Shown: one piece after another, positions 5,837 through 32,650 of the stretch
Layout of the letters: the number at the start of each line of letters is the position of its first letter
Numbering within the stretch: position 1 is the stretch's first letter
Source: Desulfobulbaceae bacterium
GTDB lineage: Bacteria; Desulfobacterota; Desulfobulbia; Desulfobulbales; Desulfobulbaceae
Assembly: GCA_011389815.1 (NCBI GenBank)
Contig: JAABTP010000013.1
Coordinates: forward strand, 1 to 48,953
Length of the DNA stretch: 48,953 nt
Reading direction: 5' to 3'
Notes under the pieces: generated by a model
Databases searched by the model: none
The model's input: the letters and a program-made list of their open reading frames with translations, nothing else
Told to the model about the DNA's origin: nothing
Translations under genes and position numbers: made by a program

Positions 5837-6671
5837 TGAATAATATAGACCCCAAAACCGTAGCAAGCTTTGGCGACGAATGGGCACGTTTTGACCAGTC
5901 CGGCATGACCAAAGACGAAGCCCGCAAAGTATTTGGTGAGTATTTCGCTGCCTTTCCTTGGGAAACATTACCAGCAAATGCCGAAGGTTTTGATATGGGT
6001 TGTGGTAGCGGTCGCTGGGCATATTGGGTCGCGCCACGGGTGGGGCTATGCACTGTATTGACCCTTCCAGTGCAATTGATGTGGCCTGGCAAACTTTGTC
6101 TGAGTATGAAAATATAGTCTTTCATCAAGCGTCGGTAGATGCATCGGGATTACAAGCAGACAGTCAAGATTTTGGGTATTCGCTGGGTGTATTACACCAC
6201 GTTCCAGATACGCAAGCAGCCATTCAATCCTGCGTGGAACTCTTAAAACCTGGCGCACCATTATTACTTTACCTCTATTATGCCTTCGACAATCGCCCCT
6301 GGTGGTTTAGAGGACTGTGGAAACTATCTGATTGGACTAGACGAGTGATTTTTCGTCTGCCAGCTAGTTTGAAACACATTGTCACGGATATTATTGCGAC
6401 GGTGGTTTATTGGCCCCTTGCCAAAACAAGTTTACTGCTCGAATATTTCGGAATTGATGTCAACAGTATTCCCTTGTCTTATTACCGAATTCATAGTTTC
6501 TACACCATGCGAACCGACGCGCGTGATAGATTTGGTACGCCACTCGAACAACGATTTACGCGCCAACAAATTGCTGACATGATGCAAGCGGCGGGATTAG
6601 TCGATATACGTTTTTCGGATAAAGCGCCGTTTTGGTGTGCGGTGGTGATTAAGGGACGCAGCAGAAAATAA
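5836..6671 (+). pseudogene. SAM-dependent methyltransferase split by a frameshift
   Basis: Two reading frames together make one methyltransferase of about 278 residues. The first (from ATG 5836) encodes FGDEWARFDQ and motif I FDMGCGSGRWAYWVAPRVG. The second continues with HCIDPSSAIDVAWQTL, the SLGVLHHVPD post-motif and the C-terminus ending at 6671. The frame must change between about 6041 and 6049, consistent with one missing base in GTGGGGCTATG. Either the gene is broken or the assembly has an error there. The family (FG.EW.RF.. methyltransferases) is common in glycan clusters. A diverged 3' fragment of a related gene lies at 11427-11570. Confidence 0.75.
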
Positions 6672-11426: not shown

Positions 11427-11570
11427 GGCGTCAGACCTCTTTTCCCCCAACGTTTTACCCAACAGCAGATCTTGAAAATGATGCAGGATGCAGGGCTTAC
11501 TGATATCCAATTTTCAGATAACGCTCCATACTGGTGTGCAACCCGGAAGACTTCCGAACATGATCAATCC
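11427..11570 (+). pseudogene. 3' remnant of a SAM-dependent methyltransferase
   Basis: In the frame of 11472 the sequence reads QRFTQQQILKMMQDAGLTD followed by IQFSDNAPYWCAT, which matches the C-terminus of the methyltransferase ending at 6671 (QRFTRQQIADMMQAAGL, then IRFSDKAPFWCA). The rest of the gene is absent and the frame then runs into unrelated sequence. The nucleotide match is only moderate, so this is an old paralogue or a homologue from another glycan cluster, not a fresh duplication. Confidence 0.6.
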
Positions 11571-11800
11571 GCCGTTCCAACTCAACCCGCCAATTGGCAT
11601 GGATACGGGCCGCAGAAGGAAGCGAAGGTAGCCGAACTCATCCCAAAAGGCTACGGGCACCCGGCCCCTGGCCACCGAGGCTCTGACCGGATCAATTTCA
11701 GCAGGATCCGTGGTCGGCAGATGACCAATCTGACACATGGGCAGATGATCAAAGCCTGTGCCACGATTCACCTCTTCCTTTAAATAAGGCAATACCAAAA
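11571..11800 (-). pseudogene. Possible degraded AAA+ ATPase fragment
   Basis: On the minus strand a segment reads PVAFWDEFGYLRFLL, then a glycine-rich LSWNGGLIMF. This resembles the Walker B region (hhhhDEF) and following segment of a family of large AAA+ ATPases. There is no Walker A and no complete gene. The similarity is from memory of the family pattern and is weak. It may instead be noise within degenerate sequence downstream of the glycan cluster. Confidence 0.22.
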
Positions 11801-29363: not shown

Positions 29364-30725
29364 ATGAAGAAAAATAACAAGAAAGAAAAAGATCCTTCTG
29401 CCCCTTTGGCAGAACGGATGCGCCCGGTTTCACTTGATGATTTTTTCGGCCAGGAACATCTTGTCGGCAAGGGAAGACTGCTTCATGAATTGATCAGCAA
29501 TGGCACAATCCCTTCCCTCCTTCTCTGGGGGCCACCTGGCACTGGAAAAACCACCCTGGCCTCCATTTTAGCGCACAATATTCAGGCAGACTTTATCTTT
29601 TTTTCCGCTGTCCTGTCTGGTGTCAAAGAACTCAGAAAAATTGTTCAGGAAACAAAAGAAAATAAAAAACAGGAGAACAGGCAAACCCTTCTTTTTGTCG
29701 ACGAGATCCATCGCTTTAACAAGAGCCAGCAGGACGCCTTATTACCTCATGTGGAAAGCGGCTTGCTGACCTTAATCGGTGCAACAACAGAAAATCCTTC
29801 CTTTGAGGTCATAGCTCCCCTGCTCTCTCGCTGCCAGCTCCTGCTCCTACAACCTCTTGATATTCAAAAAATCGTCAATATCATCATGCGAGCCTTGCAG
29901 GACGAAAACCAGGGCTTGGGTACATATAACCTTCACATGGAAACAGAGGTCGCAGAACTCATTGCCCAGGCTGCTGACGGAGATTGCCGACGGGCTCTGA
30001 ACTATCTTGAAACTGCTGCACTCCTGATTAAACAGGATAAACAAGAAAAAGAGACTATACCACAGAAAATTACCCGCCAAACTGTCCTTGAGGTCATCCA
30101 GGGCCAAACACTTCGCTATGACCGGGCAGGAGAAGAGCATTATAACCTGATTTCTGCTCTGCATAAAAGCCTGCGCGACAGTGACCCGGACGGGGCCTGC
30201 TATTGGCTCGGTCGAATGCTGGTCAGTGGCGAAGACCCCCTCTATATTGCCCGCCGCCTGATTCGATTTGCCAGTGAGGATATTGGTGTCAGCGATCCAA
30301 GATCCCTGGAAATAGCAATAACCTGCCGTCAGGCCTATGAAATGCTGGGATCTCCAGAAGGCGAACTGGCCCTCTATCAGGCCACGGTGTATCTTGCCAC
30401 AGCTCCTAAAAGCAATGCCTTGTATTTAACAGAAAAAAAGATTAAAAAAGAGATACGCTGTTCGGGTAGCCTACCTGTTCCCCTTCATTTGCGGAATGCC
30501 CCCACAGGGCTTATGAAAGAGATCGGTTACGGGCAAGGATACCAATATGCCCATGACGCTGAAGATAGCTTAGTGGTTCAGGAACATCTCCCGGATACCA
30601 TTGCCGGTAAACGCTTTTATCACCCCACGGAAAAAGGGTATGAGGCTGTTATTGGTGATCGGTTGAGGAAATGGCGAACAATTCTCCAGCAACGGGCACA
30701 GCAACAACGAAAAAAACAGGGATAA
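29364..30725 (+). CDS. rarA: Replication-associated recombination protein A (AAA+ ATPase)
   Basis: This 453-residue clamp-loader-like AAA+ protein (MgsA/WRNIP1 family) acts at stalled replication forks. It has the N-terminal RMRPVSLDDFFGQEHL, Walker A GPPGTGKTT near residue 56, Walker B LLFVDEIHRFNKSQQDALLPHVE, sensor 1 GATTENPSFE, and the C-terminal tetramerisation domain with APKSNALYL. Length matches the family. It precedes the selenoprotein gene by 44 bases in the same direction, so the two could share a transcript although no functional link is apparent. Confidence 0.93.
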   Translation: MKKNNKKEKDPSAPLAERMRPVSLDDFFGQEHLVGKGRLLHELISNGTIPSLLLWGPPGTGKTTLASILAHNIQADFIFFSAVLSGVKELRKIVQETKENKKQENRQTLLFVDEIHRFNKSQQDALLPHVESGLLTLIGATTENPSFEVIAPLLSRCQLLLLQPLDIQKIVNIIMRALQDENQGLGTYNLHMETEVAELIAQAADGDCRRALNYLETAALLIKQDKQEKETIPQKITRQTVLEVIQGQTLRYDRAGEEHYNLISALHKSLRDSDPDGACYWLGRMLVSGEDPLYIARRLIRFASEDIGVSDPRSLEIAITCRQAYEMLGSPEGELALYQATVYLATAPKSNALYLTEKKIKKEIRCSGSLPVPLHLRNAPTGLMKEIGYGQGYQYAHDAEDSLVVQEHLPDTIAGKRFYHPTEKGYEAVIGDRLRKWRTILQQRAQQQRKKQG

Positions 30726-30769: not shown

Positions 30770-32650
30770 ATGAAGCACCTGAATCTATCTTCTCTCAAAA
30801 AACGTATCTTCTCTCTTCTTCTGATTCCGACCTTTCTGCTCGCCATAGTCGCATCATCAGTCGCGTCATCCCAGGCAGAAGAATTTTTACTGTTTTATGG
30901 AAATGATGTACGGGGTGAACTTGAACCCTGTGGTTGAAAGAAAAAACAACTGGGCGGGCTGTCCAGAAAGGCATTACAGATAAAAAAACGTGCAGAACAG
31001 GAAAAACTTCCTTTTTTGTTCATTGATAGCGGCTCTCTCCTTTTTCAGCGTAAGATACTACCAGCTCGAAAAGAACTTGAGGAAAAAGTCAAAGCCAACG
31101 GTATCGCTGCTGCCCTGCAGGCAATGGACTGCCGGGCTGTGGGGATTGGGGCCCACGATTTAGCAGGAGGGCTTGGTTTATTAAAAGAGCTTCAGGAGCG
31201 CCATAATACCACCTGGCTTTCCATGAACCTGGTTGATCCTGAACAAAAAAAGCCCCTTTTCACCCCACATCTTATCACTGAAGTTGGTGGAATAAAGATA
31301 GCCTTGCTCGGTCTGACAGATGATCAGAGAGGGTACACTCATGAGGAGGAGGATCAGGATAAAGGCTATATCATCCTGCCCTGGCAGGATCTGTTGCCTC
31401 AGACCCTGGCTGAGTTGAAGAAAAAAGTCGATATGACCATTCTTCTGTCAAGCTATTCTTATCAGGTTAATAAAGAGATCGCTGAGACTGTTGATGGCCT
31501 TCACATGATCCTTGGATCCGGCCACGCAGCTCCCACCGCAGATCCCTACCCCGTAGAAAACACCTTGATTGCCCAAACCGGAACCAGGGGAAAATATCTG
31601 GGCATGATGCGGATTGAATGGAATAAGACTGGAAAATGGAGCGAACAATCCTTTATGCGGATACGAACCCAGGAAGACCGTCTGAAGCGGGTACAACGCC
31701 AGCTTACCCGTTTGGAACAACAAAAAGACAAAAAAGCCTTGGCCAAGAATACAGGGTATAAAGAATTATCCACTGAAGCTAAGCAGCTTATTGCAAACAT
31801 CAAGGCGTTAAAGAAAAATCGTGATTCCTCCCCGGAGGATGACAGTTTGTGCAAATATAGCAACCAGTTTATTCCGCTGAACACCTCGTTACCAGAAGAT
31901 CCTGATGTCAAAAGAATTATTGATCAAACTATCAAGAAAGCAAATGAGATCAGCAAAAAACGCATTACCCAAGCAGGTCAGAACCAACCGGTAATTACCT
32001 TACAGGATGTAGCAGGATCAAAGAAATGTCAGGAATGTCACACTGATCAGATGCAACTCTGGCAGGACAGCAGCCATGCAAAGGCATGGACAACCTTAGA
32101 AATGAAAAACCAGCAGTTTAACGAAGACTGCCTGCTTTGCCATGTTACCTTACCCTTTTATGATGCTGACAAAGTCAAGGCTGGCAACCTCCTTTTAATG
32201 ATGCCTAAATCATTAAAAAATGTTGGTTGCGAAGCCTGCCATGGTCCAGGTGCAGCCCATAGTGCAGGCAAGGGTACAATACCTGTTGCCCGTCCTGACG
32301 AAAAGGTTTGTCTCCAATGCCACACACCAGAGCATGATGATAATTTTATCTTTTCCGAGAAAGCCAAAAAGCTGAAGTGCTCCTTAGTGCAAGAGGATCA
32401 ACAGCCAGAGCAAGCAGGAACAGAAAAAGAGTTGCCTGATGATGTTGCGAAGGATGTTACGAAGGATGACAACAACAAGAAAGAAAAGGGCAAAGGGAAA
32501 GAGCAGGAAGTGCAAGCAGCACCGAATGAATCGTCTGAGCCAGACCTAACTGACGAGGTAACTGAGCCAAAATTAACGAACCAGACTGAAGACGCTCCAG
32601 ATGAACTTGTTATCCGGCCCAGAAAAAGGAAAACAGCACCTAAAAAATGA
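30770..32650 (+). CDS. UGA-containing (selenocysteine) metallophosphatase/tetraheme cytochrome protein
   Basis: An exported protein of about 626 residues if the TGA at 30935-30937 (codon 56) is read as selenocysteine. The frame is open from ATG 30770 to 32650 apart from that TGA. The N-terminus has a signal peptide (KKRIFSLLLIPTFLLAIVAS ... QAEE). The segment NDVRGELEPCG-U-KKKQLGGLSRKA matches the CGC-K motif of UshA/5'-nucleotidase-like proteins, with Sec in place of the second Cys. A metallophosphatase-like domain follows, then four CxxCH heme sites (residues 420, 454, 487, 514) of cytochrome c554 type and a Lys/Glu/Asp-rich tail. A SECIS-like hairpin lies just after the UGA. It is likely periplasmic and redox-active; the substrate is unknown. 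Confidence 0.8.
30950..30966 (+). promoter_or_regulatory. SECIS-like hairpin downstream of in-frame UGA
   Basis: CTGGG (30950-30954) pairs with TCCAG (30962-30966) around a seven-base loop CGGGCTG. The loop starts 18 bases after the UGA and has G at its second position. This fits the bacterial SECIS rule (loop about 16-37 bases after UGA, G within the first two loop bases). Confidence 0.6.

Follow-up and report, generated by a model that had tools for sequence, protein, structure and literature searches.

An open reading frame interrupted by a TGA can be a broken gene, a misread sequence or a gene for a selenoprotein, and the frame examined here raises both this question and that of what its product might do. 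It lies on the forward strand of a contig of 48,953 nucleotides from a Desulfobulbaceae bacterium (the whole of this stretch of DNA is referred to as the window). The frame runs from an ATG at 30770 to a stop TGA at 32648–32650, and it contains one internal TGA, at 30935–30937, in the position of residue 56. The translation bears out two claims of an earlier sequence-only reading of this DNA, namely that the frame is open on either side of the single TGA and that four CxxCH heme sites lie downstream of it.

A tetraheme UshA-like protein of a described family

The features of the locus, all on the forward strand, are as follows.

29364..30725, +, RarA/MgsA-like AAA ATPase, upstream neighbour (named by eye from the sequence; a positional neighbour only)
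30770..32650, +, gene for the predicted UshA-like tetraheme selenoprotein, 626 aa including Sec56; the final TGA is the stop
30770..30874, +, putative N-terminal export signal (KKR, hydrophobic stretch, ...SSQA ahead of EEF), recognised by eye in the translation
30875..31990, +, UshA/SoxB-fold domain and linker with dismantled metal site; AlphaFold2 model, no Pfam match
30929..30937, +, Cys54-Gly55-Sec56 site with the UGA at 30935–30937; C-G-C/U invariant in the relatives (30/30 and 36/36 rows of two alignments)
30950..30966, +, SECIS-like hairpin, stem CUGGGC/GUCCAG, loop GGGCU at 30956–30960
32024..32380, +, tetraheme c554-like domain; PF13435, 48.6 bits (cut-off 20.8), residues 419–492; PF14522, 26.7 bits, residues 483–537
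32027..32041, +, CxxCH 1, residues 420–424
32129..32143, +, CxxCH 2, residues 454–458
32228..32242, +, CxxCH 3, residues 487–491
32309..32323, +, CxxCH 4, residues 514–518

With four CxxCH motifs and a PF13435 match above the cut-off, the C-terminal part qualifies as a tetraheme cytochrome of the c554 type. The linker between it and the nucleotidase-like domain is helical, the tail (residues about 540–626) is charged, and relatives of the protein have similarly hydrophobic N-termini. No Pfam family matched residues 35–407 at E 1.

The protein belongs to NF041198 (UshA_like_PCGU, "UshA-like (seleno)protein"), which it matches with 605.5 bits against a cut-off of 275 over positions 3–518 of the 519-position model, and it carries the P-C-G-U/C motif of that family. 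The UshA-like CxU family has been in print since 2008, when an ocean survey counted 76 CxU sequences alongside 92 homologues with Cys (PMC2398784), and it is included in reviews from 2022 (PMC9312934) and 2026 (PMC13188914). The suggestion that this is a new selenoprotein therefore fails. Neither "heme" nor "cytochrome" appears as a word in the body of the 2008 paper's main text (PMC2398784). The window protein and the NF041198 model have the PCG-U/C motif and the tetraheme end in common; the differences are the hairpin loop, GGGCU as against GGUCU in most relatives, and the charged tail, which lies outside the model. A second family, NF049981 (UshA_like_Sel_2, a model of 262 positions, described as CxxU in a table of PMC13188914), has a related N-terminal domain and matches residues 42–299 with 49.2 bits, below its cut-off of 140. 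ExtKL (NF040886), listed as another multiheme (seleno)protein family, matches with only 17.3 bits against a cut-off of 250. Literature searches for an UshA or metallophosphoesterase protein fused to a tetraheme cytochrome or cytochrome c554, and for Sec versus Cys selenoproteins in Desulfobulbaceae, found nothing, and a search for multiheme cytochromes with Sec found nothing on point (formate dehydrogenase only, judged by title). What the present analysis adds to the known family is the dismantled metal site and the Sec/Cys switch between sister genera of cable bacteria.

The surroundings of the gene are less informative. A relative of the RarA-like gene stands directly upstream in 26 of the 41 loci compared (the window is counted, and some loci are duplicated among the 41), the downstream genes vary, and the neighbours other than the RarA-like one look unrelated by eye in these 41 loci, so that gene context gives no clue to the substrate. 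A scan of the window at Rfam gathering thresholds gave 0 matches and ARAGORN found 0 tRNAs in it; selC sits on another contig. The search of a plasmid collection returned one weak match. Further frames interrupted by a TGA exist in the window, and of two ORFs at 11472–11783 and 6024–6671 the short one resembles, by eye, the end of the upstream methyltransferase-like ORF (MMQ.AGL.DI.FSD.AP.WC), possibly a duplicated gene fragment.

Probable selenocysteine at the internal UGA

The UGA at 30935–30937 very probably encodes Sec, judging from the decoding genes of the genome, the conservation of the codon and the sequence that follows it. The window's genome (4.0 Mb in 233 contigs, 97% complete) was expected under the sequence-only reading to contain selA, selB, selC and selD, and each is found above its cut-off: selA with 619.5 bits, selB with 381.5, tRNA-Sec with 69.3, and selD by way of a second SelD-like gene only (225.4 bits, cut-off 125). 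The canonical Sec-type selD, present in four sister genomes with a score of 343 bits, did not turn up in this assembly of 233 contigs and 97% completeness. Where stretches of the selB contig and of one sister genome were compared, their match stops beside selB, before the expected place of selD. The sole SelD-like gene above the cut-off in the window's genome (L022; contig C116, 6109–7089, minus strand) has itself an in-frame TGA, within GCG-U, followed by a hairpin.

Of the genes from 29 relatives (loci L023–L052 minus the window's own), 25 have TGA at the codon for residue 56 and 4 have a Cys codon, which agrees with the earlier proposal that Sec here replaces a conserved Cys. Among 57 genomes searched, 49 passed the NF041198 cut-off and in 46 of these 49 one or more copies contain an in-frame TGA, its position being confirmed for the loci examined individually; the remaining three all belong to one group, designated g10, discussed below. 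All 7 other genomes of the window's genus have one TGA in this gene (position confirmed in 6), and this sharing makes a sequencing error, one of the outcomes that could have undone the earlier claim, very unlikely. That the TGA is a real stop, whether through a pseudogene mutation or an error of sequencing, could be argued from its being single and in frame and from the weak folding energy of the hairpin described below. Against this, relatives have a TGA at the same position (the 25 of 29 above), and the frame, the hemes and the SECIS codons are kept. We consider this explanation very improbable, and the conserved TGA led us to reject an error or a pseudogene.

A still less probable alternative is that the UGA ends a short exported peptide and that a separate downstream protein starts at TTG 31016. 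An ORF with that start exists mechanically, but the start falls midway in the conserved domain and its product would be left without an export signal, although heme attachment to CxxCH is periplasmic. On these two grounds a true stop with an internal start was rejected.

Some genomes contain two copies of the gene, one with Cys and one with Sec, namely G053 (L042 and L146) and one metagenome-assembled genome, JAHIVT01 (L061 and L085).

The hairpin predicted earlier is present at 30950–30966, with its loop at 30956–30960, 18 nt after the UGA, and a hairpin just 3' of the UGA is what is expected of a bacterial selenoprotein gene, while the loop departs from the usual GGUCU. Folding confirmed the structure and gave it little significance: the energy of −8.4 kcal/mol corresponds to z = −1.57, and 15 of 200 shuffled sequences were as good. 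Folding energy alone thus leaves the hairpin weak, and it is the comparative evidence that carries it. Five or all six of the stem pairs form in 44 of 46 distinct Sec stretches compared with 3 of 54 distinct Cys stretches (109 loci tried, 100 distinct stretches; L088 and L133 gave no row), and part of this contrast comes from the protein sequence, since the residues encoded there are different in many Cys genes as well. The exceptions are two Sec genes with 2 or 3 of 6 pairs and three Cys genes with 5 or 6.

Codon choice speaks for a SECIS element more directly than the stem contrast does. In the Sec genes the Ser codon at positions 28–30 is TCC in 38 of the 38 that have Ser (background 0.30), the first Gly codon is GGC in 46 of 46 (0.43), CTG is used in 45 of 46 (0.41) and GGT in 40 of 46 (0.185), where the backgrounds are the usage later in the same genes and the sequences are related rather than independent, so that significance is overstated. 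Among the 11 Cys genes encoding QLGGL, 7 use GGC, 5 CTG and 4 GGT. At the outermost stem pair (16/32) the 46 Sec stretches have C-G in 21, U-A in 15 and U-G in 2, and the pair is broken in 8. The loop reads GGUCU in 40 of the 46; one of the variants GGACU and GGGCU is seen in five distinct stretches of the window's genus (the window, with GGGCU, is counted) and in one other (L149). These deviating loops within one genus may reflect a relaxed contact with SelB.

A predicted nucleotidase fold with most metal ligands lost

The AlphaFold2 model of the window protein has a mean pLDDT of 87 and resembles both E. coli 5'-nucleotidase UshA (1ush; Z 31.6, rmsd 2.2 over 279 residues) and the thiosulfohydrolase SoxB (2wdc; Z 29.8, rmsd 3.4 over 302). 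Compared with UshA, the window protein is without most metal ligands and without the 5_nucleotid_C domain, and it has the CG-U/C site and the hemes in addition. The seven dinuclear metal ligands of UshA/5'-nucleotidase were placed on the family through an alignment with 3ivd, and the window protein keeps one of them. In an alignment of 30 rows (A1), the ligands in the order Asp, His, Asp, Asn, His, His and last His/Gln are kept in 26, 10, 1, 0, 0, 0 and 3 rows, the ligand His at 227 and that at 251 each in 0 of 30. The corresponding counts in a broader alignment of 36 rows (A2: the window and 35 loci of the best 80 of 315 matches, the distant rows aligned roughly) are 27, 7, 9, 0, 1, 8 and 4. 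Each sequence retains 0–3 of the seven ligands in A1 and 1–4 in A2. As a control, an ordinary UshA-type paralogue of the same genome (contig C105) keeps GNHEFD, THL and GGHEH, matches PF00149 with 49.8 bits and 5_nucleotid_C with 78.2 bits, and has no C-G-C.

The description of the protein as metallophosphatase-like is therefore valid as regards the fold alone, since most of the ligands for the catalytic metals have disappeared. Judged by its sequence, the protein would not be a working metallophosphatase, and we reject an intact one in view of the lost ligands (1/7 here, the key Asn 0/30). It could still be a hydrolase, a nucleotidase or a SoxB-like thiosulfohydrolase in which Cys-Gly-Sec is an added nucleophile or a regulator. 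The two fold matches, a weak match to the SoxB model (TIGR04486, 55.2 bits) and the first ligand Asp, retained in most rows of A1, point in this direction. The SoxB score lies far below the cut-off of 550, the 5_nucleotid_C substrate domain has no match in the window protein, and the few ligands left in any one sequence of A1 or A2 are hard to reconcile with such an enzyme; we regard it as unlikely.

The C-G-C/U motif and the GG that follows it are found in every row, 30/30 in A1 and 36/36 in A2. The relatives had been searched for with two peptide patterns and the best 80 of 315 matches kept; as one pattern contains PCGC, invariance in that set is partly selected, and rows without GE-x-x-PCGC must stem from the heme pattern. 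The earlier note's conserved CGC-K motif of UshA-like exported proteins holds as C-G-C/U within the NF041198 family, the following Lys not being constant, and for UshA proper it does not hold, given the paralogue on C105.

Four CxxCH motifs occur in all 30 loci L023–L052, and in 66 of 73 loci from the best 80 of 315, with fewer in the other 7 within the stretch read; two of those seven frames (L065 and L069) contain further stops. The seven loci of the 80 that were left out (L099, L104, L112, L114, L121, L127 and L129) have only a heme or linker-plus-heme match. Four relatives (L169, L172, L173 and L174, in genomes G008, G024, G032 and G014 of genera g2 and g8) possess the CG-U/C domain but show no CxxCH, either in the frame or in 1.5 kb beyond it on the same strand. 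Three of the four have Sec with a SECIS-like stretch and one has Cys; they are four rows out of seven such relatives, L170, L171 and L175 falling outside the pattern or the length limit. The hemes are thus not obligatory, in view of these relatives and of the 7 of 73 loci from the best 80 of 315. Since the domain can exist without hemes of its own, coupling to the hemes in the window protein is a matter of inference.

The lost metal site, the invariant C-G-U/C motif and the usual fusion to hemes together lead us to propose redox chemistry, which makes the function testable. Our best explanation, to which we assign a probability of about 0.6, is an exported NF041198 selenoprotein with a Sec-decoded UGA and a metal-free Cys-Gly-Sec/Cys redox domain, usually with four hemes, in which Cys54/Sec56 cycle to a substrate and to the hemes. 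In such a scheme SelB, tRNA-Sec and the downstream hairpin would decode the UGA as Sec, a step strongly supported by the comparisons. The 5'-nucleotidase-fold domain, predicted to lack the dinuclear metal site, would have the invariant Cys-Gly-Sec/Cys adjoining the old active site and would usually be fused to a four-heme c-type cytochrome. Cys54 and Sec56 would most likely cycle between a selenenylsulfide and the thiol/selenolate, so that two electrons are exchanged with a small substrate in the periplasm, putatively a sulfur, thiol or peroxide compound, and the hemes would pass the electrons on singly. The protein would be periplasmic, and redox or sulfur chemistry in the periplasm, as proposed in the sequence-only reading, appears plausible. 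This interpretation contrasts with the 2008 paper, where UshA-like is listed with two other major families as having no conserved redox motif based on Cys (PMC2398784).

It is also possible that Cys54 and Sec56 are the binding site of a sulfur carrier group (a persulfide or S-thiosulfonate) or of a metal ion, and that oxidation or reduction of what is bound falls to the hemes. The motif lies at the position of the old active site in the 3ivd alignment, the protein resembles SoxB, and many of the nearest carriers among the matches listed belong, by their record titles, to sulfur-cycling lineages. No conserved partner gene of sulfur metabolism was recognised alongside by eye in the 41 loci, and the record titles of the best 80 of 315 matches extend from Desulfobulbaceae to Myxococcales, planctomycetes, Armatimonadetes and Gammaproteobacteria, so that carriers in Planctomycetota, Myxococcota and others also speak against it. 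We hold this alternative to be doubtful, if somewhat less so than a remaining hydrolase, and prefer the selenol/thiol redox cycle.

Selenocysteine and cysteine in cable bacteria

The nearest named relatives among the matches listed, where records very near the window may be absent, are from Candidatus Electronema, with 50% and 48% identity, and the genus of the window (g1) is probably Ca. Electrothrix. All three Candidatus Electronema genomes among the 57 searched (g10, 92–95% complete) have Cys at the Sec56 position. None of the three has selA, selB, selD or tRNA-Sec above the cut-off, their best selD matches reaching 85–96 bits (cut-off 125), compared with selA in 8, tRNA-Sec in 7 and selB in 6 of the 8 g1 genomes. 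Across all 57 genomes, searched for the Sec machinery with strict limits (E 1e-9 and 1e-70), tRNA-Sec was found in 49 and selB in 48; both are missing from the three g10 genomes and from G005, a genome of 69% completeness in which selA is present.

A tree for which the Sec/Cys residue was masked places the three Cys genes of g10 next to the seven g1 Sec genes (support 100/98) inside a Sec clade, and there are five Sec/Cys state changes in all. The Ca. Electronema aureum gene (L024) retains 5 of 6 stem pairs and the GGUCU loop; the other two retain 5 (L050) and 4 pairs (L043) with altered loops. We take these hairpin traces in Cys genes to be probable SECIS remnants. The simplest reading is a change from Sec to Cys in g10 together with loss of the Sec machinery, and it seems that the Candidatus Electronema genus lost Sec and uses Cys at this site, whereas its sister genus keeps Sec. 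A literature search on cable bacteria and selenoproteins or Sec, with subscription papers mostly outside its scope, found no report of such a switch (the one match for Sec concerns Phyllobacterium, judged by title), and words in "selen-" were absent from the main texts of the cable-bacteria papers examined.

The split provides a matched pair of proteins in two genera of cable bacteria for asking what selenium buys. These results lead us to speculate, at about even odds, that in a widespread family a metallophosphatase became a metal-free oxidoreductase of the selenol/thiol type, wired to hemes, and that one genus of cable bacteria with Sec and a sister genus that lost the machinery and uses Cys constitute a natural experiment on this family. 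As a separate observation, two tRNA-Sec matches above the cut-off were found in each of five genomes (G008, G013, G038, G043 and G056).
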